Source: Chrysophaeum taylorii (Eukaryota > Sar > Pelagophyceae > Pelagomonadales > Pelagomonadaceae). From it: 64,000 nucleotides of DNA. The notes below the pieces were generated by a model, which worked only from the letters and a program-made list of their open reading frames with translations, did not search any database and was not told the DNA's origin. A program made the position numbers and the translations under genes. Location: contig JAQMWT010000188.1 of the NCBI GenBank assembly GCA_029834535.1, forward strand, positions 1-64,000, in the 5' to 3' direction. Below, piece by piece: positions 1-58,615 of this stretch; position 1 is the first letter of the stretch; each line of letters opens with the position of its first letter.

Positions 1-402
1 ACTTCGTTCAGTTACGTATTGCTCACCAGGACGATAATACGATAATCGCTGCGAGAGAAAGACTGGCGAGCATTATTAGAGTTACGCAAGCGTCGAGCAT
101 TAAACGTGGAGAGATGTACCAGGTTGGGACGAAGCGATGAAGGCGATTGTTAGCAGTTTGAGTCAGACTTTTGTCTGATAGTCCAAAGTACGTGTAAGTG
201 GTAACTTTGGCTTTGGTTGAGATGATAAACCTTCGACATAGGGTTGCCAAGAAACAGGGCGTTCGCGTCTTTTGTTCGACCAGATTACGACATTGTAGGT
301 CTAATGCGTTCTAAATGCGTCTAGGGTTGGTAGGGTGACACAATCGTTCAGCTTCTGGCACAGGTCGAGATGAAGATCGGGTTTCGTACATATAACACCA
401 AT
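1..402. other. No supported gene
   Basis: Only a 75-codon minus-strand frame is open here and it resembles nothing I recognise. The base composition is AT-richer than the gene islands further right, like the rest of the first 6 kb. Confidence 0.4.
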
Positions 403-2941: not shown

Positions 2942-3052
2942 CTTAGAAAGGTCCCCGGATTTCGTATTTCATTGCATTTCACATCTTAGCGAGTCAATGT
3001 TCCGTTGTGAGGGTTAGTTTAACGTCATTTCGGACTTGGTGAAGGGTAAGGG

Positions 3053-38993: not shown

Positions 38994-39155
38994 AAGCTGT
39001 GCTCGCACATTCTGGCCTCTCGAAGCGTAAGCCAGTCACATGCAGCGATATTTGGGATTTTCTTCACTCCACGCCTATCGGCACATTCTGGTTCATTTGA
39101 CCTCGAGTGGGTGCGTGGCCACCCTGAACGCCGCAAATACCCTTCCCGGCTCACC
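38994..39155. other. Spacer between pseudogene and LTR
   Basis: This short sequence has no feature other than the TCACC at 39151-39155, the left member of the putative target duplication of the gypsy element. Confidence 0.4.
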
Positions 39156-39477
39156 TGTGCCGGCAAAAACCTTTCCGACCTCTAGGGACACTGGGGGCAA
39201 CTCACCAACACGTCGGAGCTCTCTACACTCGCGGTAGGCTCGGGCTTGGGGGCCGGCTACGCGTCGCCACACACTTGTTCTCGCTCGCCTAGCCTCTCAA
39301 CTTGAGGCTGGCAGTTGCTTTATGATAAACAAGATACTCTTGACAGAGAAATCAGGGGGAAGTCAGGGGAGTGACATCACTTGACACCATGGGGAAAATA
39401 GGAAAAGGCATCCCGTTGAACGGGTGCAAAACCTTGAGGAGCGGGGTAAGCCTCAGCGAGCAGGAGTTGCCGCCACA
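39156..39477 (-). repeat. gypsy 3' LTR (left, 322 bases)
   Basis: Begins TGTGCCGGCA and ends TGCCGCCACA on the plus strand. It aligns along its length with the right LTR: both hold GAGCTCTCTACACTC, GGGGGCCGGCTACGCG, TTATGATAAACAAGATAC and GGCATCCCGTTGAACGGGT. The LTRs differ by scattered substitutions and a few indels, including one of about 6 bases near 39360. Confidence 0.88.
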
Positions 39478-39507: not shown

Positions 39508-40320
39508 TCAGCGAGAGGTCCGACGAGAATCACGAGCCTTGGCCGATTGAGCGTCTCGCGAATGAATTTTCCTGTAAACGCGCACGATGATGGGCTCGGG
39601 AACGCGTCCACTGCGCAAAGTAAACTTGGGGATTAACTCATCGATCTCGTGCGGAGCGAAGTCGGTGACACAGGGAGTGGTGCTGCTGATGATCTTAGAC
39701 TTGTCGGTGAAACTGCGACCGTCCACGTCCTTGTACTCCGGCTTGAGCTTGCGAGTAGAGAGATGTGAGGTGGATTTGTAGTAAGAAACCTTGTCTTGCG
39801 GACCGAGATCAGAGTAGAAATGCAGAGCTACTCGATCGTTCGCGTAATCATAAGGTTCATAAACTTTGGCGATGTAAATCTTCTTGCGCCAATCGGACCG
39901 TCCACGATCGGAGATCCGAAAGACAGCGAACTTACCGTGCTTAAAATCGTCCCCGAAATATTCCGTGGGCTTAGGCACGGCTTGATCGACCACCGGAGAA
40001 ACCATCACAGGGGCGATCTGACTGACATGAACGCAACAACGTTCGGGCGGAGAGTCGAGAGACTCAATCCTGTAGGTGACAGGAGACAGGCGCTCCACGA
40101 TAAGGAACGGGCCGTGCCATTCTGGTCGGAGTTTATTCTGAAGAAAAGGAATGTAAAGCAAAAGATGCGATCCCTCTTCGTACTCAACATCGATTTGGTC
40201 CGCATTGTAAGCGAGACGTTGTTTCTGGAGAGCTTTCTTGCGAGCTTCATTCACCGTGGCGGCGTAGAACTTCAATTTCTCGCGGGTCTCTGACACAACA
40301 TCAGAGCGAGTTTTCGGCAA
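39508..40320 (-). CDS. gypsy integrase C-terminal region
   Basis: This 270-codon frame carries on from the integrase core after a frame change around 40345. The GPY/F module is visible (WHGPFLIVERLSPVTYRI), preceded by the typical YEEGSHLLLYIPF segment. The C-terminal half has an extra beta-rich stretch (IYIAKVYEPYDYANDRVALH) and a basic end (RDSRRTSR), possibly a chromodomain-like or targeting module, though no aromatic cage can be named. Confidence 0.75.
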   Translation of the reverse strand: MPKTRSDVVSETREKLKFYAATVNEARKKALQKQRLAYNADQIDVEYEEGSHLLLYIPFLQNKLRPEWHGPFLIVERLSPVTYRIESLDSPPERCCVHVSQIAPVMVSPVVDQAVPKPTEYFGDDFKHGKFAVFRISDRGRSDWRKKIYIAKVYEPYDYANDRVALHFYSDLGPQDKVSYYKSTSHLSTRKLKPEYKDVDGRSFTDKSKIISSTTPCVTDFAPHEIDELIPKFTLRSGRVPEPIIVRVYRKIHSRDAQSAKARDSRRTSR

Positions 40321-40371
40321 GCGTCGGGCGTCGAGATCGATGATCGTGTAATCAGTCGGCTGCAGCGGCTG

Positions 40372-42111
40372 TCAATTGAGACGAAGCGTGAACGGGGATA
40401 TCTGCGTACCCGGAATGAACTTGCGATTGTAGCAGAAAGCGAAGCACTCTGCAAAGTCAGGCAAGTCCGTGATGTTCCGGTCTTGATGACATGCACGGAG
40501 AAAAGAATTAATAAAGCGGTTGACTCGTTCAGCTGGATTTGCCTGAGCATGATACGGAGTCGTAGTGCTACACCGCATGTTGAAGAGCTGACGAAACTGT
40601 TCCATCAATTTGTTGACGAACTCTTTATCATTATCGGTACGAATAAACAGATGCAAGTACCCCTTGAGGAAGATATTCGCGAGGAAAGACTCGAGGATGG
40701 CCTCAGCAGTCATGTTGTGCAGCACGTCGAGAATCAGGAATTGAGAAAACGGAGCGAAAAACACGAGGTGATACGTCTCGGGACCAACACTGGGTAAAGG
40801 TCCAAACAAGCCCATGCAGAGGACGGCGCAATCGCCGCCATACACAGGCTGCTGAAGAAGACCAGTTCTCTTGGGTTCTGGCGAGCGGGACCTCTTACAC
40901 ACCAAACAACCAGCGATGTATCTGCCCACTTCATTAGACATGTGGGGCCACCAAAAACGTTCAAGTATCGATTGCACGGTACTGTCACGACCCATGTGAC
41001 CACCATTGAGAGGGGTATCATGGTAAAGTCGAATGGTGCGCTTCTGTAAGGTGCGGGGGGCGACTACCATCGGATGTACATCAGTTGCAGCATGGTAGAG
41101 GACACCCCTCACAACTTGATAGCGAATGTTAGCTTCTTGTCGGCTAATAGTATGTCCCTGAGCCATGCGATTACGAATGTCTTCGCAAGTAGCATCAGTG
41201 ATCTGTTCTTTGGCTATCTCTTCAAAAGTCAAATTATCCGGGATCTCGTCGATGTACTCTTGGTAATCATCGGCATCACAAAAAATGTTCGGTGGGGATC
41301 GCAGACGATTCTTCTGACGTTGTCTCGTGGCGTGAGACGTGGCCAGCTGCATCGGGTCGTCGCGATCATCTTCTTTTTCCTCCTCAGGCAACTCAGTCGT
41401 GATAAACGACAAAATGACATGACATCCAGCCAGTGGTACTCCTTTGTCATCAATGGGCCGAGGAAGCTCTTGGCACACCAAATAAGCGTGATTCAAGGGT
41501 TCACCAAACTCATCCGTCTCGATGACGTGATCGATAGGATTGCGAGAGAGGCAGCCAGGGATACTCATTCCCGGTGACTTCCCTGGTTTGTAGCCCAGTT
41601 CGGGATCAAAGTTGGCCAGGCGCATCGCCCATCGAGCCAATTGTCCTGACGAGTGCGTCGCCTTCCGCAAAAACGTCAGATTGCGGTGATCCGTCTCGAG
41701 GACAGTTTTGTGCCCTTCAATGTAAGAGCGAAAATGTTCGAGATAAAGAATAACTGCCAGTAGCTCTAAACGGCGGGGCTCATAGTTCCGCGTCTCTTTC
41801 GGCACAGCTCGGCTCCAGTACTCAACCACTCGTTCCTCTTGTGTCACCTTTCCGGTGTCGTCTGTGACTTCCACGAGTTGGAAAAGATACGCGCCCAGGC
41901 CGTCCTTGGGGGCATCCGAGCGGATCTGAAAGGGAAGATCGTAGTCAGGGTGATAGACTCCGCGAGAGTCCACCAAGGCTTCGATGATCGTGCCCCACGC
42001 CTTTTGGCACTCGGGCGTCCACTTGAACGGAACGCCTTCGAGACACAATCGCCTCAACAGCTCCACAATCTTCGAATAATTATTCACATATCTGCGGCAG
42101 TAGTTGCTCAT
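40372..42111 (-). CDS. gypsy RNase H and integrase core
   Basis: A 579-codon frame. RNase H residues are visible in FQIRSDAPKDGLGAYLF, PRRLELLAVI and LETDHRNLTFL. Then an acidic linker, and the integrase zinc finger LYHDTPLNGGHMGRDST with the CLVCKRS pair (HHCC). In the catalytic core the first Asp of the DDE triad, expected in a DFxGPLP context, is replaced (CMGLFGPLP). The second Asp (RTDNDKEF) and the Glu (AERVNRF) remain. Integration by this copy is therefore doubtful. The start overlaps the RT frame by 4 bases in another phase, reflecting a frameshift near 42150. Confidence 0.8.
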   Translation of the reverse strand: MSNYCRRYVNNYSKIVELLRRLCLEGVPFKWTPECQKAWGTIIEALVDSRGVYHPDYDLPFQIRSDAPKDGLGAYLFQLVEVTDDTGKVTQEERVVEYWSRAVPKETRNYEPRRLELLAVILYLEHFRSYIEGHKTVLETDHRNLTFLRKATHSSGQLARWAMRLANFDPELGYKPGKSPGMSIPGCLSRNPIDHVIETDEFGEPLNHAYLVCQELPRPIDDKGVPLAGCHVILSFITTELPEEEKEDDRDDPMQLATSHATRQRQKNRLRSPPNIFCDADDYQEYIDEIPDNLTFEEIAKEQITDATCEDIRNRMAQGHTISRQEANIRYQVVRGVLYHAATDVHPMVVAPRTLQKRTIRLYHDTPLNGGHMGRDSTVQSILERFWWPHMSNEVGRYIAGCLVCKRSRSPEPKRTGLLQQPVYGGDCAVLCMGLFGPLPSVGPETYHLVFFAPFSQFLILDVLHNMTAEAILESFLANIFLKGYLHLFIRTDNDKEFVNKLMEQFRQLFNMRCSTTTPYHAQANPAERVNRFINSFLRACHQDRNITDLPDFAECFAFCYNRKFIPGTQISPFTLRLN

Positions 42112-42962
42112 GCCAATAAAGATCGAATCTGGGTCTTCGGAGACGTATTCGGCAGCGTCCCGGGAATCGGCATTCGCTGCAACGCTTCCAACGTCTTAGG
42201 ATTCGGCTTCAGGCCTTCCGGAGTCGAAATATGTCCCAGAAACTCGACATCATCTTTGAGAAGGTGAAACTTTGCTGTTCGTCCACTATATCCTCTCTGT
42301 GCTAAGTGGAACAATACTTCAATCAAGACTTGCAAGTGACTGTGGAGGTCGTCCGATCCCATCATAATGTCGTCGACAAACGCGACCAAGTCCTTATACA
42401 TCCATTCCGATAAATCGCTGGCCATCTGCTTGCAGAAGAGGGCACCTGCTGTTTTCACTCCCAGAGGCAAGCGCAAGAAACTGCGTGCTCCGAGTGGGCT
42501 AACCATCGTGACAGCGTCCTGAGCAGCGGTGTCTAAACGCAGGTTGTGGTATCCCCATCGAGTATCAATGCACGTCCGCCAACGGCGCATGGCAAGGAAA
42601 GCCAGAGCATCATCTTGCCGAATATTTGGCCAACTATCATTGACCAGCTGATCGTTGAGCTGACGTAAGTCAACTGCAGCACGAAAAGCGTTCGACGTCC
42701 CGATCTCTGCTCCCTTCTTAGGCAGCATCAGCACAGGAAATCCCCACGGAGATTTCGCCGGTCGGATGACTCCATCGCGACACCACTCGGTGATCTGCTT
42801 CCTAAGACAATCTAGTTTTGCTGGCGTCAACCGATAAGGCGTCATCTTGATCGGTCGTGGGTTTGCGTCTTTTAATCGTAGGGAAACCGGCGGCGAGTCC
42901 ACTGGTCTCATAATCGGGTCAAAAATGGCCCACGCGTATTGCATGCAGTGGCGCAACATCAT
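42108..42962 (-). CDS. gypsy reverse transcriptase
   Basis: RT motifs in order are PYRLTPAKLDCLRKQI, SPWGFPVLMLPKK, FRAAVDLRQLND, the first catalytic Asp in CIDTRWGYHNL, LPLGVKTAGALFCKQM and the FVDD box in LVAFVDDIMMG, followed by VEFLGHISTPEG. FVDD is a common variant of YVDD in gypsy elements. The end after ALQRMPIPGTLP is out of frame with the rest, so the polyprotein is split by a frameshift here. Confidence 0.85.
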   Translation of the reverse strand: MMLRHCMQYAWAIFDPIMRPVDSPPVSLRLKDANPRPIKMTPYRLTPAKLDCLRKQITEWCRDGVIRPAKSPWGFPVLMLPKKGAEIGTSNAFRAAVDLRQLNDQLVNDSWPNIRQDDALAFLAMRRWRTCIDTRWGYHNLRLDTAAQDAVTMVSPLGARSFLRLPLGVKTAGALFCKQMASDLSEWMYKDLVAFVDDIMMGSDDLHSHLQVLIEVLFHLAQRGYSGRTAKFHLLKDDVEFLGHISTPEGLKPNPKTLEALQRMPIPGTLPNTSPKTQIRSLLA

Positions 42963-42987
42963 CTTCGCATCTTCATCTAAATGCCGA

Positions 42988-43320
42988 TTATCGGGAATTC
43001 CCAGTTCTAAAACAACTCTCGACTTCTTCTTTCGTCGGAATTTCGACTTTCATCGCTTCGTTGGCCTTGACGTGCTCCGGAGTCTGCGGCAGCGGCGCTC
43101 CGTCCGCATCGCGCGGTGCATCCTTCCACGGCACATCGAACTTTTCTTCATATTTAAACCTCACTTTAGGATGGCTCTTATTGACCTTTTCACCTTTGAC
43201 GCGCACACTTGGTTCGCTCCTCACTTTCGGCTCCCGATCAGGTTCAGGATCCGGCGGAACGTCCAGTTTTGGTTGTCGGGGGGGGGGCAGCAGAGGAAGT
43301 ATGAGCCGTCCCCGGCGCAT
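42988..43320 (-). CDS. gypsy pol linker between methyltransferase-like domain and RT
   Basis: Pro- and charge-rich 110-codon segment (QPKLDVPPDPEPDREPKV, FDVPWKDAPRDADG) with no enzyme motif. It bridges the methyltransferase-like region and the RT frame. Part of it may be the variable linker upstream of RT. Confidence 0.4.
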   Translation of the reverse strand: MRRGRLILPLLPPPRQPKLDVPPDPEPDREPKVRSEPSVRVKGEKVNKSHPKVRFKYEEKFDVPWKDAPRDADGAPLPQTPEHVKANEAMKVEIPTKEEVESCFRTGNSR

Positions 43321-43559
43321 CTATTGGAAGCGGATGTAAAGGTGCTTCTGGCGGTTTCCATTTGGTGCGATCCAGGAGATCTTCTTTGACACCCACTCAA
43401 CGACACGAGTACGCGCATTCAACAGCAGGACCTGTACGTGACAAAGGGTGGTGTCGGTAATTCGCAGATATTGCTCAGAGGGTCGATCTGTAGGGCTCAG
43501 CGCGGTATCAAGGACCTCGCCACTTTGGCGGAAACCTCGGGTCACGGAGTTGTGCAGAT

Positions 43560-44448
43560 CGAGTGCTAAAATCGCAAAAGTGTCTGGGGGCACGACGGAC
43601 GCCAAGTGCCTGAACGAGTCTGTCTTAGATAAGCCAACCCAATCAAAATCCAGCGGCATCGTGAGCAACTCTGCGGTCATTTTGAGAGTCAAAGGCTGAG
43701 TGTCCGAACGGTGCGGTCCTAGTCGAGAGGAACTCGCGTAACGGTGTAAGCCGTATCCGTGGCTTCTCGGGACGAGCCTAAATTGTTCAGCTGGAGCAGG
43801 TTTCGTTGTCTTCGTAACCTAAAGCTGCAGCGAATTTGTGTTGCATATTTGCACAAGTTTTTGGAGCTTCTCGCAGGTGCAGCGGTTGACTGGAGACCAA
43901 CAACCGCACGCGACAGCTCATCAAATTGGGCGTAATGTCGTGAACATTGACGACGTACACATAAGGGTGTAAACGCGCAATGTAAGAAATAATCGAAGCT
44001 TCTTGTTCAATCAGCCACATCATGAAGCCAGCCATTTTGCACAGCTTCATCTTCCCGTGAGTGGTCGTAACTCCTTCGGGACATCTCTGGAAGTCAAATT
44101 GCAGAGTGCTGAATGAACGCAGGGCGGGGACGCGATGCACATCGACGATGACCATTCCGCTTCGGGCAATTAGGCCTTTATCAATCGAAGGGTCGTTATG
44201 TAGCGTCCGCAGAGCGTGTGCTGAACCACAGGTACCTTCGGAAAATTCTTCTGATGGATCTTGTTGGCAGCTGCTGAAGAGTCAAGAGCAAGGACGACTC
44301 GAAGCGACGTCCCGCACAACTCGTTCGCTCGTTGCAACCCTAAAGTACTGCCTCCGGCGCCGCTGAATAGCATCACGACTTTGCGATACGTGATCGGCAG
44401 CCATTGGACGTTTTCAAAATCTTCGGCGAATCTCGCCTTCTGTAGCAT
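43560..44448 (-). pseudogene. Cytosine-C5 DNA methyltransferase-like domain inside gypsy pol, decayed
   Basis: Read on the minus strand, three short frames give the C5-methyltransferase motifs in order. Motif I is VMLFSGAGGSTLGLQ (44350-44367 core, SAM-binding). An acidic-end strand follows (VVLALDSSAAANKIHQKNFP). The motif IV position reads VPALRSFS (44108-44131), so the catalytic Cys of PCQ is gone. The motif VI position reads YVYVVNVHDI (43943-43951), where the ENV Glu is lost. Motif VIII is CRVRLLVSSQPL (from 43915), motif IX is AYTVTR (about 43740), and motif X is FRHLASVVPP (about 43600). The SAM site thus remains, but both catalytic residues are absent and frames are broken. The domain lies between the protease region and RT. 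C5-methyltransferase capture by retrotransposons is known in some algae and dinoflagellates. Confidence 0.72.
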
Positions 44449-45373
44449 CTCGGCACTTCTTTTCCTCTTCGTCGGATCGTCGGTCGAAATCGTCGTTGCG
44501 AAGCGATCTTTGACGGGAGGTCACGTCCTTTTCGGCGGAGTGGGCCGTAGTTTGTACCGAGCTCAAAAGCATCGGCGAGGGGACTGAGTCGCATTGCGTC
44601 TTATGGCTTGCGACCGAAACAGTGTACGACAGGCTTGCCTTATCATAGGTTGCTTCACAGTCCTTCGTTAATTCTTCAACCGTAGAGACGTTCAACTCGT
44701 CCTCGTAACGAACAATATCCCCGAGGGCGAGCATTTTGCCTTGAGTAATCACGGTCGGCACATCTTGGGTGGATGAAATCGCGACGCGAGCGGCGGACTT
44801 GTCGTGATCTTCGGAAGAGGAACACATTCCATCGACTATCCCGAGTTGCTTGTATCCAGCGGATGTAGCAACGAAAACTTGCCCGTTTCCAAAAATCTCG
44901 GAAAGGGTAACTGGTACGCTGTAAGTGCGTCCAGGTTCGACCTTCATCGTGCGCGCAGCGTAGGCAACCACTTCATGGGCAGCGCTGCTCGAAACTTGAG
45001 AAGGCGTAACGGTCGAGACTCCCCAATTCGTCGAAGCTACCGCTCGTTCCGGCGGTGGACGCTGGAGGTCTCTAATCGTGCACAAGCGAGCGTAGACTCG
45101 ATCCTCGACCGTGCTCATGCTCTGCTCCATTGCGGGGTGCTGGTGACCGTAAATCGGTACTACCACAGGGTTGCGCTCATAAGTTGATCTGAACGTCAAG
45201 ACTGGGGAATCGACTCGTCGATCCTGCACCTTTGACCACTTGCGCCCGTATGCTATTTGTGTGCGGTGAAACGTAGTGCGATCCTGCGGGTAATCCACTA
45301 CGGCTCCCAGCATTCGAATATCGCGCGCTCCCACTAAAAATAAATTGTTCGTATCAGCCACGATGGCAACCAC
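44414..45373 (-). CDS. gypsy post-protease region
   Basis: The frame starts with NNLFLVGARDIRMLGAVVDY, which matches the LLGxDWLxxxGAxID segment immediately after retroviral-type proteases in gypsy elements. The remaining 250 residues are without a recognisable enzyme motif (TYSVPVTLSEIFGNGQVFVA) and run into the frame change before the methyltransferase-like domain. Confidence 0.55.
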   Translation of the reverse strand: MVAIVADTNNLFLVGARDIRMLGAVVDYPQDRTTFHRTQIAYGRKWSKVQDRRVDSPVLTFRSTYERNPVVVPIYGHQHPAMEQSMSTVEDRVYARLCTIRDLQRPPPERAVASTNWGVSTVTPSQVSSSAAHEVVAYAARTMKVEPGRTYSVPVTLSEIFGNGQVFVATSAGYKQLGIVDGMCSSSEDHDKSAARVAISSTQDVPTVITQGKMLALGDIVRYEDELNVSTVEELTKDCEATYDKASLSYTVSVASHKTQCDSVPSPMLLSSVQTTAHSAEKDVTSRQRSLRNDDFDRRSDEEEKKCRDATEGEIRRRF

Positions 45374-46152
45374 CGGGACTGCATCGTCGTCCGCAAGAGC
45401 GATTCGTAACGCGGCCCATCTGTGGATGGTCGTCTGGTTAAACCCGACCCATACAGGGTGCGCTCGACTGGAAGTTCGCCTTGGTCAAAGATAATCTTGT
45501 CCTTCGCCAGCTTGGCGACCATCTCGCGGCAAATGTAGGAGACATCAGCCATCCCATCAACACCAATGGTCGTTGCAAACTTCGGCCCGTCTCGTCTTTT
45601 ATAAATATATCCAACCATGAACGTCAGTGTGCCAGTGTCCAGACAACCGATGGTAACGAGGTCTTCCTCGATCGTTTCCCCGTCGCGCGGCGACAGAGCG
45701 GTATGATAGCATCGCCCCTTCGGATCCGCGTCGCCCGGCATCTGCATCGTCACAGCTGCCGTCTTGTGCATCGCGCGTCCCACCTCTGAATCTTCAGCGG
45801 CTCTTGCAGCAGCATCTTTGTCTGGTGGCTCTCGCTCTTTTTCGGTCGCGACCTCGGGTGGGCTCGGCACTTCGGCGGCTTCCTCATATCCAAGTTTCGC
45901 TGATGCCTCGGAGTTCTCCCATATGGCGCTCATTTCATCTTCCCACGACACTTCCATCGAATCGTCCTCGGGTCGTCGATCTCCACTTCCGATTTCAATC
46001 TGGTCTCGGCTCTTCGCGGCATCTTCGCTGCAACTCAGCGATCGACTCCTTCTTTGCTCGGGCGGTTTCTTCGGCAGGATGCTCTGAACCTTCGTCCGCG
46101 CTTGCTGAAAGCTCCACGTCGTCTTACTTCCGCAAACACTGTTTGACTTCAT
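45334..46152 (-). CDS. gypsy aspartic protease region
   Basis: The N-terminal two thirds are acidic and low-complexity. Near the C-terminus, ATTIGVDGMADVSYICREM matches the retropepsin active-site region, with DGMAD where DTGAD is usual. The exact Asp-Thr/Ser-Gly triad is therefore altered. It is followed in the next frame by the FLVGARDIRMLG segment. Upstream, the sequence resembles the gag-protease junction. Confidence 0.55.
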   Translation of the reverse strand: MKSNSVCGSKTTWSFQQARTKVQSILPKKPPEQRRSRSLSCSEDAAKSRDQIEIGSGDRRPEDDSMEVSWEDEMSAIWENSEASAKLGYEEAAEVPSPPEVATEKEREPPDKDAAARAAEDSEVGRAMHKTAAVTMQMPGDADPKGRCYHTALSPRDGETIEEDLVTIGCLDTGTLTFMVGYIYKRRDGPKFATTIGVDGMADVSYICREMVAKLAKDKIIFDQGELPVERTLYGSGLTRRPSTDGPRYESLLRTTMQSRWLPSWLIRTIYF

Positions 46153-46544
46153 CCAGCTCGCGTATCCATCATTCGTGCCCTTCTCAGCTTAATCGGCGCT
46201 TCGACGGTCCTCATCGGTCACCGGCAGCGAGTTCTGACACTTCTCAATCGGAGGTACATTCGCTTCCTCCTTCGTTTCATCGGGCGTTTCTTGCAATCGC
46301 TCGTCCGTCAAGTTGGGCGTATCTGCCCACTTCTCCTCCATCGGCGCCTCTGTGGTCTGATCGGCCGTGACCAAAATCGTTTCGGGGGGGGGGGGCAAGC
46401 AGAAAAAGAAGACGTCGTCCCCGACGTCAATTCGGTTGACATGACGTCGTCAGCGTGATCGTCCCTGAACGACGCACACAGTGACGAACTAGGGGACACT
46501 GGATCCTGAAGCGCTGGGTCGTCATCCTCTGAATCTGAGTCTTC

Positions 46545-48265: not shown

Positions 48266-48816
48266 CTAGTTCCTTGGTCGGTTCTCGATTCGGTCCGCCT
48301 CGCGGGAGATTGACTCCCCCGCCCCGTACTCCTCGATCGTCTCGCAGGCCGATCGTAGCTGCTGGATTGTTGGGTGGCTCGTTGTTCTTCTCGCTCTACC
48401 CTCCATGCTTCTTGCTTGCGTCGAAACTCGTCGATCTGCGCGCAATGCCTTGGGATTGGCTCGTTGTTGCCGCAGCGCTTCCTTCAACTCAAAAAATTCT
48501 TGTTGGCGCTCTTGTTCCATCTTCGCCTCGGATTCTGCTCGTTCGCGATCGAATCTTGCGGTTAACTCTTCGTTTTCGCGTCGTATACGCTCGAGACTTT
48601 CCCGAATTTGCACTCGGTGGCCCGTTTCCGTCTCGCCCGTGTCGCGTTCGCCGCGCTCGGGGTCCCCGTACTCAATGGTGAGAATATGCCGGGCTCTACC
48701 GGTACTTCTTTCGCGTCGACGTTTTCGTCGCCGCTAGCGCCTATCTCCACGCGGTTTGCCTCTGCGGCCGCGGGAATGGGAGGTTGTTCTTCTTCATGCT
48801 CGTCAGCGTCCTCCAT
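48266..48816 (-). CDS. gypsy gag N-terminal coiled coil
   Basis: Two overlapping frames: an acidic start (EDADEHEEEQPPIPAAAEAN) and a heptad-like coiled coil (SLERIRRENEELTARFDRE, then FFELKEALRQQRANPK). It sits at the 5' side of the interior, where gag begins. The acidic segment lies in the 145-base tandem duplication. Confidence 0.45.
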
Positions 48817-48990
48817 TCTGTCGATGATGCTGAATCTCCAGGTTCTGCACTTCTTTCGCGTCGACGTTTTCGTCGCCGCTAGCGCCTATCTCCACGCGGT
48901 TTGCCTCTGCGGCCGCGGGAATGGGAGGTTGTTCTTCTTCACGATCGTCAGCGTCCTCCATTCTTCGATGATGCTGAATTTCCAGGTTCT
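48705..48990. repeat. 145-base tandem duplication in gypsy 5' region
   Basis: CTTCTTTCGCGTCGACGTTTTCGTCGCC recurs with a 145-base period, and the following TCTCCACGCGGTTTGCC and GGGAGGTTGTTCTTCTTC words repeat with it. It is a nearly perfect doublet with a few substitutions. Confidence 0.85.
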
Positions 48991-49413: not shown

Positions 49414-49431
49414 TCTCGTACTCCTCCACCA
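49414..49431 (-). promoter_or_regulatory. Possible gypsy primer-binding site
   Basis: Two bases after the 5' LTR on the minus strand the sequence reads TGGTGGAGGAGTACGAGA. It begins with the TGG complementary to a tRNA CCA end. The donor tRNA was not identified. Confidence 0.45.
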
Positions 49432-49433
49432 CG

Positions 49434-49758
49434 TGTGGCGGCACAAACGTTTCCGACCTCTAGGGACGGGGGGGCACTCACCAACACGGCGGAGCTCTCT
49501 ACACTCACGGTAGGCTCGGGCTTGGGGGCCGGCTACGCGTCGCCACACACGTGTTCTCGCTCGCCTAGCCTCTCAACTTGAGGCTGGCAATTGCTTTATG
49601 ATAAACAAGATACTCTTGACAGAGAAATCAGGATGACGTCAGGGGAGTGACGTGACATCACTTGACATCAAGGGGGAAATAGGAAAAGGCATCCCGTTGA
49701 ACGGGTACAAAATCTTGAGGAGCGGGGTAAGGCTCAGCGAGCATGAGTTGCCGCCACA
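49434..49758 (-). repeat. gypsy 5' LTR (right, 325 bases)
   Basis: Begins TGTGGCGGCA and ends TGCCGCCACA on the plus strand, a perfect terminal inverted repeat of 10 bases. It matches the left LTR across its length with scattered differences. Confidence 0.88.
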
Positions 49759-50048
49759 TCACTTAAAAAAAAAAAATTGTCAAGTCTTTCCAGCATCTTG
49801 CTGATGGCCTTGCATTGCGTGGACGGTGTGAAGCGTGTGCGGATGACCCTTCTTGGACGCATTTCTGCTTTGGCCGGCGTTGGTTTTCCACCTTCCAGCG
49901 GCGCCGTCGAGTACCGTCTGTTTGATGGGGCTCGCTCCACTTTGCTGACGCAGCTTGGCCTTGCGGGCCTTCGTGCATAATAGCCTGCGGATGTCGACCT
50001 CTCACTTTTCTCGTCCGGACATCTTTTATTGGCCCGTGCAAGTCATTC
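49759..50048. other. Spacer upstream of the C2/coiled-coil gene
   Basis: It holds the TCACT target duplicate, an A-rich run at 49765-49777, and the probable promoter of the gene that starts at 50049. No gene is supported. Confidence 0.4.
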
Positions 50049-52748
50049 ATGACGCGCACCATGCAGGTTAAGTTCCTCGTGGAGCAACAACGAGCCACCG
50101 GCGCGATGAAGCACGAGGGGAGCCGTTGGAGCTTCGAGGGTAAGGCTTCCTATCAGTCCTTTTGAAACCGCTCAACTTCTCTGCTGATGAAGGATGCCAT
50201 TTGCAGTCGTCCTCCACGACTGCATTTTCGCCAAACCATGCCCGTACTTCATCTCGCTGCAGCTCGACAAGTCGAAACGATTACGAACAGAAGTATGTCC
50301 ATCTTCGTCGCGGGTGGCAAAGCTGAACTGTCAAACTCAGGTGTCGTCTGCAACAACCACTCCGTCGTTCGCAAAAGTGTTCCGCGACGTCGACTTCGAT
50401 TGCGCTTCCGAGGAGGAAGAGCATCGGTTGATTCTCGAGGCGTTTGTGGTGTTGGGAATAGGCGGACAGTACGAAGCTCCGCAGCTGCTTGGCACGGCGC
50501 AGGTGTCTTTCCCAAAGCGCATTGTCGAGAGCCTCTCGCAGCACGTGACGCTGATTCGACGACGCACGGACACCGAAATTGTTGTCGGCAAGCTTCGCGT
50601 CGAGATCCGCGTCGAACGTGCGCCGGGCGAGCTAGTCGTGTTGGTGCGGCATGCCACCGCGCCGTTCAGTTGCTCTGTTTGTGTTGACGGCGTCTTGTTC
50701 AGCGCTGCGCAATCTACGCCGCCTTGGAACGAGCGTTTGACGTTGGCAATACCTCCATCAAAGGAACGGAGCTCGCTGCGCGTCGAATTCGACAAGTCAC
50801 GGGATGTCTTGGACCTGCCGCTGAAACGACTGGCTCCGTTCTACACTCACACCTTGGAGCTCGAGTGGCCATCCAAGGAGGCAGCACTCTTGTCGTTGAC
50901 CGCGATCGATCCTGCCCTGCCGCTGGTCACCAAAGTTATGGTGAACCGAATCACATTCAAGCTCGCCCACGAAACGGCTGGCGGAGAGGCAGGGAGATGC
51001 GAGAAGTTGGTTGCGGTGCTGCAGGTTGTAGACAGCGCCGCCATCGGGCCGACGACGAGTGCATGGCTCCTCCGCGAACACGCTTTCCCTCGGGATCACT
51101 GCGTTTTACATGACGGCAATGATGAACCCGCGGTACCATTGAACGAAGGCGGTGAATGGATGCGATCGCATCGCCAGCCTACGCTCGAGGCGAAGGCGGA
51201 AGACGGGGTCTATGCTTGGCAGGATGCTGCAGTCTTCGCTCTCGGGTCACTCGACTTGTCCTTGGAAGGCAAGGCTGCCATGGTCGTAGTGGAATTTCTC
51301 CGCGCCGACGGTTTATTGTGTGGTAACGAGAAAGATCTTGAGCGCATCGGATACGCTGTATGTCGCGTACCGAGCGTCGCGTGTGTTGACGTGCGCGTGC
51401 CCGTGCGCGCATACGTCGACGACGCCTTGGTCGGCGACTGCAATCTCGCTCTCGCTGTCGAGAAGATGGATAGAGTGTTTTCGCAGCAGCCAACGCCCAA
51501 CATCTACGCTGGCTTGCGGTATCCGGAGTTGGCCACTCGAACTGATTGGGAACCCTCGACGAAATACAACACGGATTATCGGACACAGTTCGCAGCATTG
51601 ACCGAAGAACTGGCGGAAAAAGAGGCGCGTACTGTATAGCCACAACGCGGTGGAAAAGAAAGATAGCGCAGGTGGCCATTCAGCGCCTGGTTGCCGACGT
51701 CGAAGAGCGCAACGAGGCACTGCGCAAGTGCGGCGAGAAGATACGTCGTCTGCAGAGTGCGGCCAAAAGAGCCGAGCAGACGAACCAAGGGCTCGAAAAA
51801 AGGATTCAGGAGGAGGAGGAGGAACGGTGCCGCGAATACGAGGTCGGTCTTGGTTCATTTGCGCGCGCAACAGAGCTTCATTTGCGCTGCTCTCACACAG
51901 ACCATCGAGGGCGAGCTTGACACGATGATCTCGGGTGACCCTGACCAGAAGCTGCGCACCCTTGGGCGCATGTATCGAAAACTTCAACGCGAGCATACGG
52001 CACTTCTCGCCGCGAGCGATTGGCAAAAGTCCATGGAAAAGGAATTTAGCAAGCTCAAGGTAGTGTTCATACGTTGGGCTCGCGTGGATTACACGACGCG
52101 TGTAGGTCGCACACCATCGCCTTCAGCAAGCGCACGCAGCGCAGGCTGCTTTCATCCAAAGCTTCCAAAGCGACAAATCCAAGATCGACACGTACAAGAC
52201 GACCATCACCATGCAAGAGAAGATTATCCATAAACTGGAGAACATTATCGACGCCAAGTTACAAGTGCTCTGCCGCCAGCGTGCCGCGGAAGCCAAGGCG
52301 ACCCGCGATGAGATCGAGAGGATCAAGACCGAGGGCACGCGCGCTGTTGAATCCCTTGCTGCAGACTTGAGAACACAGGAGACGCAGCTCAAGGTGGAAC
52401 AGGCCAGGCAACGCGAAGTGCAGTTGACAAAGGAGGCCGAGCTCAAGGAGAAAGAAGCCAGATTGCGAGACGCCGAGGTACGACGCTCCTACCCTTGCTG
52501 AACATGTTGTGCTGGGGCAAAAAAGAGCGTCTTCGTAGGTTGCCAAGGAGGCTGTCAATAGCGCCTTTGTGCTTGACGCTAAGGACCAAAAAATCCACAT
52601 GCTCGAGGAGCAGCTCGTGTCAAACGCGACCGAGTCCGGTCGCGAGATTGCGCGGCTAAATTTGAAAATCTTTGAACTCGAAATGCTTAGGAACGAGGAA
52701 CCGCCGAGCGAGCAAGCACCCAACGTGGACCTTCCTGCACACTACTAG
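50049..52748 (+). CDS. C2-domain and coiled-coil protein, CCDC33-like (7 exons)
   Basis: Exons are 50049-50139, 50207-50292, 50341-51633, 51672-51842, 51901-52059, 52127-52477 and 52539-52748; every junction is GT-AG and phases agree, giving 786 residues. One intron (50293-50340) is 48 bases and would stay in frame if retained. The N-terminus (VVLHDCIFAKPCPYFISLQL) and the following beta-rich 430 residues look like tandem C2-type domains. The C-terminal 300 residues are a coiled coil with TYKTTITMQEKIIHKLENII, a pattern seen at the coiled-coil end of CCDC33 proteins. CCDC33 is tied to sperm and cilia in animals, so a flagellar role is plausible. The identity rests on architecture and one motif. 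It converges with the next gene, with 83 bases between the stops. Confidence 0.62.
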
Positions 52749-52831
52749 TGAGTGGCAGCAATCTGTATGTAAAGAAACTGAGGTCCTCGCTCGCATACAT
52801 TATGCATATTCGTAAATCTCGTTGGTCATGG

Positions 52832-54904
52832 CTAGAACGAAGGAGGACCAATGCTCATGTGCACACTTTCGCTGCGGTTCGCTGTAGCGCGTGATGGCAA
52901 GTCGTGCACAAGGTGTTCAAACTCCGCTAACACCTTGGCACGGAGAGTGGCATTTTCATCGGAAGAAAGGAGGCCGAGCTCGTTGACCTGGACAAGCCAC
53001 ATAAGCTTGCGTTTGAGTGTCTCGAGGCGCGAGTCAGCACTGCCCTGGACAGAAGGAGGCTCGGGTTTGTGTGCCGCCGCCGCCGCCGCCGCCGCCGTCT
53101 CTTGGTTGATAGCATCGGCCACTTGCTCGGGAGTGGCTAGCGAAAGGTCGTCGTCGTCGTCTGAAGTCTTTTCTTCGTGGCGGTGTTGTGACTCTTGTCG
53201 AGAATGAGTTTCATCGACGACGGGTGGTTGTCGACGGTCGGCAGACATTCGCGAGCTGGGGCAACAGTCTTCTCGATTGTCAGCGGCCAGCCCCCTCCAC
53301 CAGCGAGCGGTTGCCTGTTTAAGGACGAGCGCTAGGCGCTTCTTCTCTTGGGTCTTGAGGGTCCAGGAAGTGAAATTTTCGTTTCGTCGTTTGGTCGAGT
53401 GCATGGCGAGGTCGACAAAAACGACGTCTGCGCGCGGAACGATCGCTGTGGCATTGGATTCGAAGAAGCGTTCGCCGAGCATCGACTCGTTGAGGGGCGA
53501 GGCGACTACGGGGTCGAGAGGCGTGGCGAGAACGTTGTTCTCTTCGTCGGGTGCGGCGGTCGCGATGCCCAGGACAAAGTCGAGGCCCTCAGCTTCTTCG
53601 CGTTGCCACACGACGTTGGACCGAGGAGCGATGTCGCGCGTTTCGTGCACCACGAGACGATCGCGCGATTCCCAGCGCAGCTCGTCGCGGTCGAGGCGCG
53701 CGAGAAGGCCGCGCTTGGCCATCTCGCTGATTTTCACACCATACCGCTTTTTCGGCGCGGCACTTTTTTTTCTTTTGTGCGACGACGATGTTCGTCGTTT
53801 CCATTTGTTGTTGTTGTTGTCTTGGTCGTCGTCTTCGTCGTCTTCGCCGCCATAACGTGGCGAGGAGGACGACGCGGTGGAAGAAAAGGAGGGTCCGCGC
53901 GGGTCCCCAGCACCGTCGAGCTCAAGATCAAGGTAGGCCAGAGTGTCGCGGCGGACCAACTCGGGCGCCCTCGAGAAGTCGCGCTCGAAGGTCGCGTCGA
54001 GCGCGAACTTGGAGGAGGACTTGATGTCGTCCCGAAAGAAACGAACCTTGACGAGGCTGTCCGGCTCGGTGCCGTCGCCTTCGACGAGCTCGAGAATCTC
54101 TACCAGCGCCCACCACAAATCGCCCTCGTGCTTGGGGGGATCGTAGACGCGCGCGACGGCGAGCGATCCTACGCGCGGGACTAAGTGGTCGTGGTCCGTG
54201 GCAACGTCGCACTCGAACGCCGCGCGACGCCCGAGCTCCTCGACCTGTTTGGCCAGGTGGGATTTCTCGGCGTCCAGCCGCGCCCGTTCCTCGTTCCGTC
54301 GCTTGTCGGCTTCCCGCAGCCTTTTCTGCTCGCGCTCGAGCTGTTCGATCTCTCGCGACAGCCGGTACGTTTCGTCGTCGCGTTGTTCGTCGACTACCGA
54401 TCGTCCGCGCAACGCCGTCGTGATCGACCCCCGCAGTTCCAAGTTCTCGGCCTCGAGTTCCTCGAGGCGCCGAGCGACCAACCCCGAGTGTTCGGCCGTC
54501 GTCGCCTCGAATAGCCTTTGGATTTCTGACGTCGCGTTCGCGTCGTCCTCGTCCAGGCACGCGCCGTCGTCGCATCGACGCATGAAAACCACCAGGCGGC
54601 TCGAAGCCGCCACGCTCGCCGCCGCCGCCGCCACGCCGGCATCGATCTCGCTCGCGAGCAAGTCGAGCCCTAGACTGTCGCCGTCGAGCGCGGCCACGAG
54701 CGACGCAATCTCGCTCGCCGTCGCCTCCTGCGTCTTGCGCAGCTTGTCCAGCTCGCGCTTCGCCCCCTTGGCCTCCTCGATGAGCTCGTGCGCGCTCCTC
54801 AGCAGTGCATCGCTCGATTCGCTCGACACCCTCTTTGGGTATCGACACAGCCCGAACACCACAGCGACAAATAAGCGCCGCCGACTCATCATGGGCGTTG
54901 CCAC
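52832..54904 (-). CDS. Intronless coiled-coil protein with a Tudor-like middle domain
   Basis: The single frame is 690 residues. Several in-frame Met codons at the start are close together; MMSRRRLFVAVVFGL may include a signal peptide. Residues 30-215 form a long coiled coil (LIEEAKGAKRELDKLRKTQE, YRLSREIEQLEREQKRLRE). A globular part follows (HLVPRVGSLAVARVYDPPKH, EGDLWWALVEIL, LVKVRFFRDD) that looks like a Tudor/PWWP-type barrel. Then a Ser/Asp/Lys linker, a conserved-looking block (GVKISEMAKRGLLARLDRDE), and a C-terminal helix (LETLKRKLMWLVQVNELGLL). No enzyme motif is present and I do not recognise the family. A poly-Ala run encodes a GCC repeat at 53081-53098. Confidence 0.62.
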   Translation of the reverse strand: MATPMMSRRRLFVAVVFGLCRYPKRVSSESSDALLRSAHELIEEAKGAKRELDKLRKTQEATASEIASLVAALDGDSLGLDLLASEIDAGVAAAAASVAASSRLVVFMRRCDDGACLDEDDANATSEIQRLFEATTAEHSGLVARRLEELEAENLELRGSITTALRGRSVVDEQRDDETYRLSREIEQLEREQKRLREADKRRNEERARLDAEKSHLAKQVEELGRRAAFECDVATDHDHLVPRVGSLAVARVYDPPKHEGDLWWALVEILELVEGDGTEPDSLVKVRFFRDDIKSSSKFALDATFERDFSRAPELVRRDTLAYLDLELDGAGDPRGPSFSSTASSSSPRYGGEDDEDDDQDNNNNKWKRRTSSSHKRKKSAAPKKRYGVKISEMAKRGLLARLDRDELRWESRDRLVVHETRDIAPRSNVVWQREEAEGLDFVLGIATAAPDEENNVLATPLDPVVASPLNESMLGERFFESNATAIVPRADVVFVDLAMHSTKRRNENFTSWTLKTQEKKRLALVLKQATARWWRGLAADNREDCCPSSRMSADRRQPPVVDETHSRQESQHRHEEKTSDDDDDLSLATPEQVADAINQETAAAAAAAAHKPEPPSVQGSADSRLETLKRKLMWLVQVNELGLLSSDENATLRAKVLAEFEHLVHDLPSRATANRSESVHMSIGPPSF

Positions 54905-55091
54905 CTAGGTTTTTCTAGGGTTTTTGAAGATCGACTGGTAGTAAGTAGGGGGGTGTGTGTGTGGGTCTGTCTGTTTGTCTTTAAATGTCGACTGCTAAGA
55001 GGGGGGGGTGCGTGTGGGGAGCATGAAGGATGTGGGTGGGTTTGTGGGGTATGAGGGATGTGCCTGACGGGCGGAGATAAGTACGCGGGAC

Positions 55092-55637
55092 CTAGTCGGG
55101 GTCATCGCCGAGGCGTGGGGCAGGCGAAGAAAGGACGGGCCCCGCCCGTAGGTCGCGCATGCTGCCGCCGGACGTGTGCGACGGGTGACGTCCTGCTGGG
55201 ATCGGGCGGCCTGGGCGGGGTTCCCGAGGCGGCGACATGGGTGGGGCGGTGAGGGCACAGCGAGCCCGGCCTAATGCGTTGGCGATCCCCCACTCACGGT
55301 AGATGCGGCGAGTTTGGGCCGCCTTTGCCTCTGTGAAGTTGGCGCAGCCGCTTGTCACCCAGGTTCGCGCAGCGATGCGCTCTGCGCATGTTTGGGCGAG
55401 AGCGTGGCACGCCGCGCTGGCCTCACCGAAGGCACCAAAGACGAGGCCGGCGACGGTGCCGTAGCTACGTAGCCGCTGTTCGACAGGGCCCAAGAAGCCA
55501 GGCGGTGGTGCTGTACCCGGCTGGGGGATGATGGCGTCGATGCCGCGGGCGTGAGCGAGGTATTCGGAGTGGACTTGCGCTGCGCGCCGATCGACAGGCG
55601 ACGGGTGGGAGGGATGGAGGGCGTGGGCGGTGTACAA
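55092..55637 (-). pseudogene. LINE ORF C-terminus, copy G
   Basis: 181-codon frame equal to copy F in the post-nuclease region, with small deletions near the C-terminus. YDIKT is in another frame, preceded by a frameshift and a TAG at about 55658, so no full nuclease is encoded. Confidence 0.6.
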
Positions 55638-56742
55638 CGAACCCCAAGCGAGGGTTTAGATGTCGTAGAGTTGCTCCTTGTTGTCGAGCGTGGTGAGGAT
55701 GTCTGGGACGACTTGACGTCGGGCGAGATTGCCTCGGTACCGGCCGTAGAGGCGCGTGCGAATGGTAGGGCGACGACGTCAGCAAAGATGCCGAAAACCT
55801 CGGACAGGGCTGGGATGCCGGCCTCTTTGACGCTGCCGTGGACGCAGTCGAGCTGGCCGTCATGCCAGGTGGTCCGCGCTCCTCCGCGGTTGACAAGGTT
55901 GGCCTGCGTGAGAAGCACCTTGCCGTGAGCGTCGAGAACGACGTCAGTGCCCAGAATGCGAGTGCCCACGAGGCCCAAACAAGCTGGAGAGGGTAGCCAA
56001 AGTACTGGGCACACATCTCAGCCCAGCAGCGGTTGGGGATTTGAAGGCCAGAGCTGGGCCACGAGCTGATGAACGTGGTCGAGAAGCGATCCCATGAGGA
56101 CGCCGCTACTCGAAGTGCTTCGGTGATGGGAAGGGTGGCCGCAAGGCGCTGGAGTGCAGTGGCCCGAGCTGTCTCGCGCTGGGAGGTTAGAGCACGCTGG
56201 AGTTGGGGTATGAGCACGGGTGTCGAGATGGTGGGGTCGACGAGGACGCCCATGGAGACGAATTCGTGGGAGAGAGGACCGTCGACGAGATGAACGTTGG
56301 CGGGGTCGCCGGAACCAGCGCCGCCGTGGGAAGCCAGCGTGGTACGGAGATCATCCCGAAGTCCGTCCCACGCAGTCTCGAGTGCCCGCCCCAGGCGGCA
56401 ACCGGATGCGAGGAGGTGGTGCCAACGGTGCAACTCGTTACCTGTGCGAAAAGAAGTGGCACCCAGGACCGAGGCGAGGCGGGGGAGGTAGCCAGGGACC
56501 TCCAAGGCACCCGTAGGATCGCGAAGGTCGACGAGGTGTGGGAGGGCCTGGGCCGCCGTGCCAACAAAGGCGGCGGGGCTGAGGTCGGCGCAGGAGCGAA
56601 TGCCGCCACCCCCACTTCGAGCAGGAAGACGGAGGCGTTGGAGGACGATGCCGTTGGAGTCAAAAACCTGACGCGGATCTGCGCCAAGTGCTGTGGCGAC
56701 GAAGCTGAGGGCGGCAACGTCGAAGCGGCGGAGCGCGCTCAA
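55465..56742 (-). pseudogene. LINE ORF, thumb to nuclease region
   Basis: This 425-codon frame covers the conserved region after RT: RLPARSGGGGIRSCADL, then helical sequence and CWAEMCAQYFGYP. It goes out of frame relative to copy A at about 56010 (compare LQLVWASWALAFW here with PACLGLVGTRILG in copy A). This shows the family's upstream domains, absent in the other copies. Confidence 0.6.
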
Positions 56743-56758
56743 GGCATTGGTGGGGTAG

Positions 56759-56860
56759 CAGTGTTTGTCTTTAAAGGTCGACTGTTAAGAGCTGTGTGTG
56801 TGGGGGGGGCACGAAGGATGTGGGTGGTTAGGGGGGGGTGCTTGAGGGTTTCGAGGTTTC
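56759..56860 (-). repeat. LINE tail upstream of copy G
   Basis: GTTTGTCTTTAAAGGTCGAC, TGTTAAGAG and GCACGAAGGATGTGGGTG are the inverted LINE tail with substitutions. It abuts the 5' end of copy G in the same orientation. Confidence 0.7.
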
Positions 56861-56948
56861 GGTGCGTACCGGTGCGTAGTAGGATGCATTCGAAATGTAC
56901 CTGTACTTCTTTTCAAGTTCTTGAAGGCTCTAAATTCTGAAGGAACAG

Positions 56949-58117
56949 TTGCGGCCGGCAGGCGTCGACGGGGTGGAGTCGCAGGCAGTGCCTATGGCCT
57001 GCCGCGACAAGGCCAAGCTCGTCCGTGAGGCGGCGATGCGTGTCGTGGCCATCGGGGGGCCTGTCGCGAGCGCTTTGAAGAAGGCGCAGGCCGAGACTGC
57101 GGCCTGGGCGAGCGTCAGCTACAGGACGGTCGCAGTTCGCGTTGCGACGATAAAGGAGGCCGGGCTTGCGGCGATCATTAAAGAAAACGTGCCGCCGCCG
57201 CCGCCACCGCCCCCGCCGCCGCCGACGACGGAGCTGCCACTCGAGGAGCGCCGGGAGCTCTGGATCAAAAGGCGAGTGCGGACTCGGGGGGCGTCTTGGC
57301 TGACGGTCAGTCTCGCGGCCTCAAGAAGATCATTGACAGCTGCAGCGCGCTCTACGGCGAGGACGCGAAGTGGTCGGGGAACTCGGTGAGGATCTACGCC
57401 GCGTCGCCTTGAATCTTCAAGAGACGCTCGAGCGCTTAAGCCAAGCTTTGTGGGCTGCGCTCCAGCCCGAGGTCAACCGCGAGGCCTGGTCCAAGTCCGG
57501 CCTCTCCCCCTTCAACTAGGCCCCCTATTGGATCCAGCTCTACCAGGAGCAGCAGCAGGACGCCGCCCGCGCGGCGCCGGCGGACGAACTCTCCACGGTT
57601 AAGAACACATCTGCGCTGACGCAGTTCCCGTCTTCTCGGAAACGCGCCACCCCAGCCGCCAACGCCAGCCCGGATGCTGACCCAGAATCCGAAGCTCCCA
57701 ACGGCGGCGGCGCTCGCCTGACATCTGCTGACCTCCAACGCTGTCCTGGCACCGCCAACTCCGCGGAGAAACGCCGGCTCTCGTACCTCAAGGGCCATCA
57801 AGGAGCAGCTTGGCAAGCACAACCTCGGAGCCTACACCACCCAGGACGCCGGCAAGGTCGCTCTCCTTCGCCACCTCGAAGGCCAGTTTGGCAATCCTCC
57901 TCTCCTGGCTCCCCGAGAGCCTTCGTGCAAGGTTGCCATCGGCAGCGAGAGCGCGTGCGAGGCGCCGCCCAAGAAAAGAAAGAAGCCCGACGACATAGAC
58001 GCCTTCCAACTCAAAGCCAAGGCCGAGGAGTGCATAGCCAAGTCCATACGCGCCTCGAACACTCATCGGGTGCCGCTTTCCCCCATTCAAGCTTCCAACA
58101 CCACCTCAAGTGTCTGA
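56949..58117 (+). pseudogene. Transposase-like gene, internally deleted, possibly pogo/psq-type
   Basis: The start (56949-57389) holds KAKLVREAAMRVVAIGG and VSYRTVAVRVATIKEAG, which resemble a Pipsqueak/CENPB-type helix-turn-helix, and a poly-Pro run at 57191-57222. A second frame (57361-57793) contains ALQPEVNREAWSKSGLSPFN, a stop, and APYWIQLYQE; AWxKxGLxPFN is like the end of DDE transposases of the pogo/jerky type. A third frame, open without any Met (57722-58117), carries AIKEQLGKHNLGAYTT and the nuclear-localisation-like PPKKRKKPD. The frame changes once near 57790, and there is no room for the DDE catalytic core, so it is a deleted derivative. The family assignment is tentative. Confidence 0.4.
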
Positions 58118-58487
58118 GTCGCCCTCAGGCTCTCAGACACCCCGCTAACATTCGCTTATAAGTTTTTTGGGCGCCCAGACGGACCATCCGGAAGCATAGC
58201 AGAGCTCCCCAGAAGTCCCGGTGTCGGGGTGTCCGTGGGGACTCATAGGAGTCCGCTCGCAACTTCCTTCAGAAACCAGCGTACCCCCCCCGAAAACCAC
58301 CGTCGGAGTGACCATTGTCGTGCCCGATTACTCGGATGACCGTCCATGCCGTTTGACCCCAGCTTCTCAGGATTCCGAAAGGGCTCGACGAGTCGTGGTT
58401 TTGAGCCGTTTGCGGGTCGGGTGGCCGAGCACATCGCTCGCCAGCCGCCCGGACGTATGTACATATGTGCGACAAATTCCAGGGGTT
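58118..58487. other. Spacer, no gene seen
   Basis: It continues the probable mobile-element flank of the transposase-like relic. No gene or clear repeat. Confidence 0.35.
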
Positions 58488-58615
58488 TAAAAGTCGACTT
58501 CTAAGAGTGGAGGTACGAGCGGGGGCACGGGCGATGAGGGGCGTTTGTGGGTTGTGTGTTGGAAGGTGAGGGATGCCGGAAAGGCGGGGGTATCCCGCCC
58601 GCTCGCTCATAAATT
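58488..58615 (-). repeat. Diverged LINE tail
   Basis: TTTAAAAGTCGACTTCTAAGAG, GATGAGGGGC and GGTGAGGGATGCCGG are related to the inverted LINE tail but the most diverged of the set, perhaps from a sister family. Confidence 0.5.

Follow-up and report, generated by a model that had tools for sequence, protein, structure and literature searches.

Cytosine methylation often silences retrotransposons, a relation that is inverted in elements carrying a methyltransferase of their own. In the accessible parts of the published reports, to which our comparisons with known elements refer, DNA methyltransferases (DNMTs) occur in LINE and DIRS elements of Symbiodinium, the LINE-borne SymbioLINE-Dnmt lineage being an orphan, and in a Gypsy element of Klebsormidium nitens, which has a Dnmt3 in its Pol with conserved key residues and a Ka/Ks below 0.2; SymbioDIRS-Dnmt3 is active in yeast and the test of KnitGypsy was inconclusive (de Mendoza et al., PMC5890265). 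Orphan DNMTs, some of them in SymbioLINEs, and DNMT3 in LTR Copia and DIRS elements have also been described (PMC12344493), as have Ty3/Gypsy- and DIRS-clade elements that encode Dam and Dcm in stramenopiles and in red, green and charophyte algae (PMC6338049), and N4/N6-type methylases in algal DNA transposons (PMC12477816). Here, we describe a large Ty3/gypsy family of Chrysophaeum taylorii (genome of 70.8 Mb in 697 contigs) that carries a C5-cytosine methyltransferase (MTase) between a protease-like segment and the reverse transcriptase (RT); in sister copies, it forms part of a single uninterrupted Pol frame. One copy, bounded by long terminal repeats (LTRs), lies on the minus strand of the window, meaning the whole stretch of 64,000 nucleotides analyzed here, part of contig C188. 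This window element is an unremarkable, broken representative of a kind of element that is striking but already known, and it has some new features.

DNMT-bearing gypsy elements are already known and what is new here is a divergent C5-MTase with Glu-Gln-Glu (EQE) as motif VI. Like KnitGypsy-Dnmt3, the family places a C5-MTase inside the Pol reading frame of a Gypsy LTR element, has many copies, keeps the key residues and is under purifying selection, but there are differences: (i), the KnitGypsy domain is reported as a Dnmt3 and its repeats as arranged as in DIRS elements, whereas the LTRs here are ordinary direct repeats (PMC5890265); (ii), the present domain is a divergent C5-MTase with an EQE motif VI, in a genome that holds a second, unrelated MTase family. 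Like SymbioLINE-Dnmt and SymbioDIRS-Dnmt3, it adds up to hundreds of retrotransposon-borne C5-MTases per genome, those being in LINE and DIRS elements and these in Ty3/gypsy; SymbioLINEs are moreover depleted in CpG, which the window element is not (PMC5890265). DIRS elements with Dam-like adenine methyltransferases (cited in PMC5890265) share the pairing of a retroelement with a DNA methyltransferase and differ in both enzyme family and element class. In our searches of open-licence PMC texts, we found no report of a Ty3/gypsy C5-MTase with EQE, nor of a catalytically dead one.

The capture of a C5-MTase by a Ty3/gypsy pol, as the first-pass annotation of the window had proposed, is borne out by the sister copies, their profile matches and the predicted fold. 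The motif I piece of the window copy had at least 150 matches in the genome (150 scored of 760 candidates), and the intact domain of a sister copy (L081:3000-3950, 317 aa) had at least 125 (125 of 125 scored, 1031 candidates), down to 77% identity, about 97 of which are stop-free by hand count. A second subfamily, 1B (represented by L085), is 41% identical to the domain of this subfamily, 1A, over 273 residues (E 2e-69), with at least 138 matches (130 scored of 902 candidates). These 1A and 1B copy counts are lower bounds, and are slightly inflated because contigs C25 and C521, which show near-identical matches at near-identical coordinates, are redundant. Of the 62 1A loci that were fetched, the window among them, 16 have the domain unbroken and stop-free; one of these 16, L073, has lost its Pro-Pro-Cys through a local frame change. 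These loci are not a random sample: apart from the window and one separately fetched set, they are the best matches to the window pieces. Three rows were excluded before residues and intactness were counted: L021, L051, which is the window, and L084, which duplicates L080. L054 and L055 were both counted though they lie on the near-identical contigs C25 and C521. In L081, the domain sits within a frame of 3067 aa, a 1999-aa part of which matches in succession PF00145 (19.8 bits, below cut-off), RVT_1, RNase H, H2C2 and rve (31.2 bits, below cut-off). PF00145 matches all nine sister-copy domains of our alignment A2 (best E 1.4e-9), so the sister copies do carry the domain, and some in either subfamily have it in uninterrupted form. 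Finally, an MTase match lies at most 4 kb upstream in at least 52 of 69 RT rows, among the matches listed, these rows having been picked by profile range and score from 152 RT matches; the other 17 are no evidence for MTase-free elements.

Neither catalytic residue has been lost in this family, and both codons are kept even in the window copy. It had been proposed that the catalytic Cys of motif IV is replaced in the window by Pro-Ala-Leu (PAL) and the Glu of the motif VI Glu-Asn-Val (ENV) by Val-Asn-Val (VNV), possibly in a lineage that kept a non-catalytic reader. PAL is, however, read out of frame: the frame of motif I (-2) encodes Ser-Pro-Pro-Cys over the same bases (SSMCIASPPCVHSALC), and the Cys is present in 60 of 61 readable loci (the alignment of L025 is poor at this site). 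As for VNV, it is not motif VI. We had ourselves considered the site, Val-Asn-Phe (VNF) in most sister copies, as a motif VI with a family-wide change from Glu to Val, and dropped this because a remote alignment, a profile-profile comparison and the Cys-Glu spacing all move motif VI to EQE. The ENV Glu of eight remote PF00145 proteins (E 2.8e-4 to 7.7e-3 in a profile search with A2) aligns by MAFFT to the first Glu of EQE (Glu139 of L081:2880-3827), and hhalign places it likewise (probability 99.3, E 9.4e-21, 280 columns). This Glu follows the Cys by 38 residues in 1A, by 40 in 1B and likewise by 40 in the ENV-bearing second family, whereas the VNF site lies 57 residues after the Cys. In the predicted model, Glu139 sits in strand 135-141, and the strand that comes after it, 155-159, is made up of the VNF segment. 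Of 61 readable loci, 60 keep the motif VI Glu; in 1B, copies L085, L087 and L088 keep both Pro-Pro-Cys and the EQE Glu, with IVDF (L085) or VVDF (L087 and L088) at the VNF-equivalent site, and L086 is decayed in that stretch. As aligned, the unusual feature is thus EQE where C5-MTases have ENV, the Glu being kept and the Asn and Val replaced. Catalytically dead C5-MTase-like proteins of the DNMT3L kind have lost both the catalytic Cys and the Glu; this family keeps both and does not belong among them. A "dead reader" would have been a false lead, the product of a frame error and a misassigned motif.

The window copy itself is a pseudogene (Table 1). With the intact L081 domain as tblastn query, it breaks up into five pieces spread over three frames. 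Motifs I and IV both lie in frame -2, separated by one stop; motifs VI to VIII follow in frame -1, then comes a short stretch in frame -3, and motifs IX and X are back in frame -2. The frame changes inside the domain lie near 44077, 43806 and 43725, and another lies upstream between 44411 and 44484. By hmmscan, the motif I piece (open frame 44170-44520) matches PF00145 with E 4.1e-4 and 20.3 bits, the cut-off being 22 bits, and the remaining window pieces gave no PF00145 match. Motifs I, VIII, IX and X were all located in the window in the C5-methyltransferase order that had been reported for them. The frame change near 44077, between motifs IV and VI, corresponds to query residue 157 and recurs there in nine other fetched loci (L052-L056, L058, L059, L061 and L063), a sample that is biased because their search query spans the frame change. 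In all nine, the frame that holds motif IV still codes for the Cys, and what these copies have in common is the frame change and not a loss of that residue; copies without the frame change exist. Our guess is a homopolymer indel, real or from assembly; it may also be a shared lesion or, conceivably, a programmed frameshift, which the uninterrupted copies do not need.

The domain is under purifying selection, about as strong as that on RT in the cleanest pairs. The ratios of nonsynonymous to synonymous change (dN/dS, Nei-Gojobori) of the MTase are 0.131 for L081-L082, 0.149 for L081-L083, 0.047 for L081-L027, 0.046 for L081-L036, 0.084 for L027-L036, 0.115 for L027-L041 and 0.055 for L085-L087, dS being 1.7-2.5, near saturation, in the three lowest ratios; dS is saturated in three further pairs, of 1A with 1B. 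Compared with the linker plus RT (350 codons), the MTase gives 0.142 against 0.159 in the L083 pair and 0.131 against 0.122 in the L082 pair; this latter comparison replaces an earlier "RT+" value of 0.633 for L082, which came from an alignment across a rearranged frame. Flanking polyprotein segments are less constrained than the MTase (0.13-0.62, six pairs measured). Between the window and L081, with pieces pooled across frame changes, the ratio is 0.094 for the MTase and 0.053 for the linker plus RT; a ratio of 0.41 between the window and L027 was set aside as unreliable because of the same pooling. In the other pairs with L027, the ratio lies between 0.084 and 0.555, and its higher values come from comparisons with decayed loci.

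A C5-MTase fold is predicted, from an AF2 model made with homologues in the alignment. Foldseek and VIA-align of this model place DNMT1, DNMT2, DNMT3 and bacterial enzymes close together. Sequence relatives are remote: a protein search with the intact open reading frame region gave 0 of 6012 candidates at E 1e-3, the A2 profile found the eight PF00145 proteins mentioned above at E 0.01 (7996 scored), and no relative was found in viral and prokaryote collections. A PDB sequence search with A2 gave four matches, all C5-MTases (E 0.16-0.76), and in NCBIfam dcm (TIGR00675) alone matched, below cut-off for member 1. Relative to bacterial-type and DNMT1/DNMT2/DNMT3-type enzymes (PF00145), the family has motifs I, II, IV, VI, VIII, IX and X in order and the predicted fold, but L081 is 19-22% identical to the eight nearest found, and besides the change from ENV to EQE, the Gly-Asn of motif X is Ala-Ser or Gly-Ser.

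Our preferred reading is that the window interval is a decayed copy and that the MTase of the family, with both its catalytic residues, probably methylates the element's own nucleic acid during replication. It is likely still an active enzyme. The Gag-Pol polyprotein would be cut by the protease to release the MTase, which could be packaged with RT and methylate the new complementary DNA (cDNA) in the particle, before or at integration; the methylated cDNA might then resemble host-modified DNA or escape a host nuclease. De Mendoza et al. suggest cDNA methylation likewise for their elements (PMC5890265). CpG, non-CpG, transient and RNA methylation may all be envisaged. Besides the near-saturated dS of the lowest ratios, several observations weigh against an active self-methylating enzyme. 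The L084 pair shows weaker constraint on the MTase (0.263) than on the linker plus RT (0.108), and where decayed loci are compared the MTase ratio rises as far as 0.307 and 0.555. Pfam scans found no protease family in the protease-like segment. The AF2 model leaned on distant homologues and was poor with family members only (predicted local distance difference test score, pLDDT, 41). Motif VI no longer has the Asn and Val found in ENV, and activity may be reduced as a result. Finally, the window element has a CpG ratio of 1.24, no different from its surroundings (flanks 1.23 and 1.26), and the 1A median is 1.19 (30 loci), so that the window element and 1A bear no mark of CpG self-methylation; the ratio is lower in the 1B copy L085 (1.01, TpG/CpA 1.20) and in the second family (median 1.06, 18 loci).

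This lack of CpG depletion in 1A would also fit an active enzyme with an RNA substrate, such as the genomic RNA or the tRNA primer, and Foldseek lists DNMT2 chains high among the hits to the model (ranks 2, 5 and 10). We regard this as fairly unlikely: the VIA-align Z scores of DNA enzymes are similar or higher, and the fold does not tell the substrate. Alternatively, the domain could be conserved and folded yet weakly active or inactive through the change from ENV to EQE, serving as a nucleic-acid-binding or covalent-trap module. EQE is indeed invariant in the nine A2 members and ENV in all eight remote homologues, and the window element shows no CpG depletion; but the other catalytic motifs are kept, including the two Arg of motif VIII, and in the pairs with L082 and L083 the constraint on the MTase resembles that on the linker plus RT, which makes such a module unlikely.

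Much less can be said for a lineage that kept an S-adenosylmethionine-binding, non-catalytic reader without Cys and Glu. A one-frame reading of the window through motif IV does give PAL, the VNV/VNF site (Val-Asp-Phe in 1B) has Glu in none of 60 readable loci, and nine other loci change frame behind motif IV at the same place. The counts of both residues, the position of the Cys in the frame of motif I, the two alignments of EQE to ENV, the Cys-Glu spacing and the existence of copies lacking the frame change nevertheless render it very improbable. The last alternative, chance insertion in one dying copy, describes the window copy well, with its stop, its several frame changes and its 92% identical LTRs, and for that copy the earlier suggestion of simple decay holds. 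For the family, it is refuted by the at least 125 and 138 matches in 1A and 1B, the 41% identity between them, the purifying selection and the uninterrupted domains, and as a general explanation it can hardly be credited.

The genome also holds a second, unrelated MTase family. It has 57 PF00145 matches; of the 20 best, which were fetched, 18 (L003-L020) belong to this other repeat family, family 2. Its members (for example L017:487-3423) have a motif I-like AGGLHQEGF, an LPCQ and an ENV. Upstream in the frame is a protease-like DGGAS segment, seen by eye, and downstream a weak integrase match (rve E 0.0016, 19.1 bits, below cut-off, in L089); this order of protease, MTase and integrase would be Ty1/copia-like, although no RT was seen. 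The alignment of family 2 with the PF00145 set has a probability of 68 (E 4.8e-5), and profile comparison with the Ty3/gypsy family gave a probability of 0.2; the two captures look independent because the families show no profile similarity. With a family 2 region as query, none of the 7994 sequences scored was a homologue at E 1e-3. An insert of about 370 residues separates its motifs VIII and IX (L017:1927-2841, L012:1945-2862); a 305-aa stretch of it had no match in Pfam or PDB, and its HxD...G...H pattern, seen by eye, recalls a 2OG-Fe(II) dioxygenase of the TET/JBP kind. We tentatively hypothesize that a Ty3/gypsy and a Ty1/copia-like element of this one plastid-bearing genome captured unrelated C5-MTases at a shared position, directly behind the protease, and that selection has maintained them there, self-methylation being a convergent, selected step of replication; this is possible rather than probable. 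Because the genome is compact and each of the two LTR groups is present in many copies, the use of the enzyme to the element could be tested directly.

Two further PF00145 proteins stand outside these families. L001:1498-2577 matches across the full profile (69.6 bits) and is presumably DNMT2-like from its motifs, read by eye, and L002:1006-3537 (65.4 bits), in a long frame, is perhaps a host DNMT of another class.

The window element is a Ty3/gypsy LTR retrotransposon by its LTRs and by the pol order RT-RNase H-integrase. Its LTRs are identical at 304 of 331 positions (92%, 7 gaps, BLASTN), and its parts follow from 5' to 3' as a gag-like region, the protease-like segment, the MTase, RT, RNase H and integrase, and the integrase C-terminal part (Table 1). 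The gag-like region is assigned by position, a Pfam scan having given no gag match there, and rve within 40372-42195 scores 0.001, below its cut-off. The original placement of the MTase inside an LTR-bounded gypsy pol, from protease to RT, therefore stands as to LTRs, pol and RT; the protease amounts to an Asp-Thr-Gly seen by eye, without a Pfam match.

Table 1. Features of the Ty3/gypsy element and its methyltransferase domain, in window coordinates
Feature	Position	Strand	Basis or remark
5' LTR	49430..49758	(-)	BLASTN pair with 39152-39477
Protease-like segment, Asp-Thr-Gly	45631..45639	(-)	By eye, open frame 45334-46188
C5-cytosine methyltransferase domain (interrupted: one stop, several frame changes)	43585..44484	(-)	tblastn with L081:3000-3950
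Motif I region (LFSGAGGSTLG)	44215..44382	(-)	PF00145, residues 47-102 of open frame 44170-44520
In-frame stop, motifs I to IV interval	44170..44172	(-)	End of open frame 44170-44520
Motif IV, Ser-Pro-Pro-Cys	44119..44130	(-)	Cys codon 44119-44121, frame of motif I
PAL of the first-pass annotation	44120..44128	(-)	Neighboring frame over motif IV bases
Motif VI, Glu-Gln-Glu	44000..44008	(-)	Catalytic Glu codon 44006-44008; MAFFT and profile-profile alignment
VNV of the first-pass annotation (VNF in most sister copies)	43943..43951	(-)	Strand preceding motif VIII
Motif VIII, Arg-Val-Arg	43904..43912	(-)	Both Arg invariant in alignments A2 and A6
Motif X, Val-Val-Pro-Pro	43585..43596	(-)	Open frame 43321-43818; aligned by both methods
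Reverse transcriptase	42108..43049	(-)	PF00078 E 1.4e-12
RNase H and integrase	40372..42195	(-)	PF17917 5e-25, PF17921 1.1e-16
Integrase C-terminal part	39508..40371	(-)	PF22938 Integrase_p58_C 1.2e-8
3' LTR	39152..39477	(-)	BLASTN pair with 49430-49758

On the gag side of the element, window positions 48704-48819 and 48849-48964 form a 116-nt duplication, 98% identical and 145 nt apart. Positions 1-6000 of the window, with a GC content of 46-48%, a positive GC skew (0.12-0.29) and a CpG ratio of 0.96, differ from 8001-38000 and 50001-64000 and are perhaps another repeat. Elsewhere in the assembly, eight RVT_1 matches within about 45 kb suggest that contig C696 is an organelle genome rich in group II introns. 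Contig C697 has a RuBisCO large-subunit match in a frame of 488 aa, the usual length of the red-type large subunit, from which it follows that the host has a plastid.
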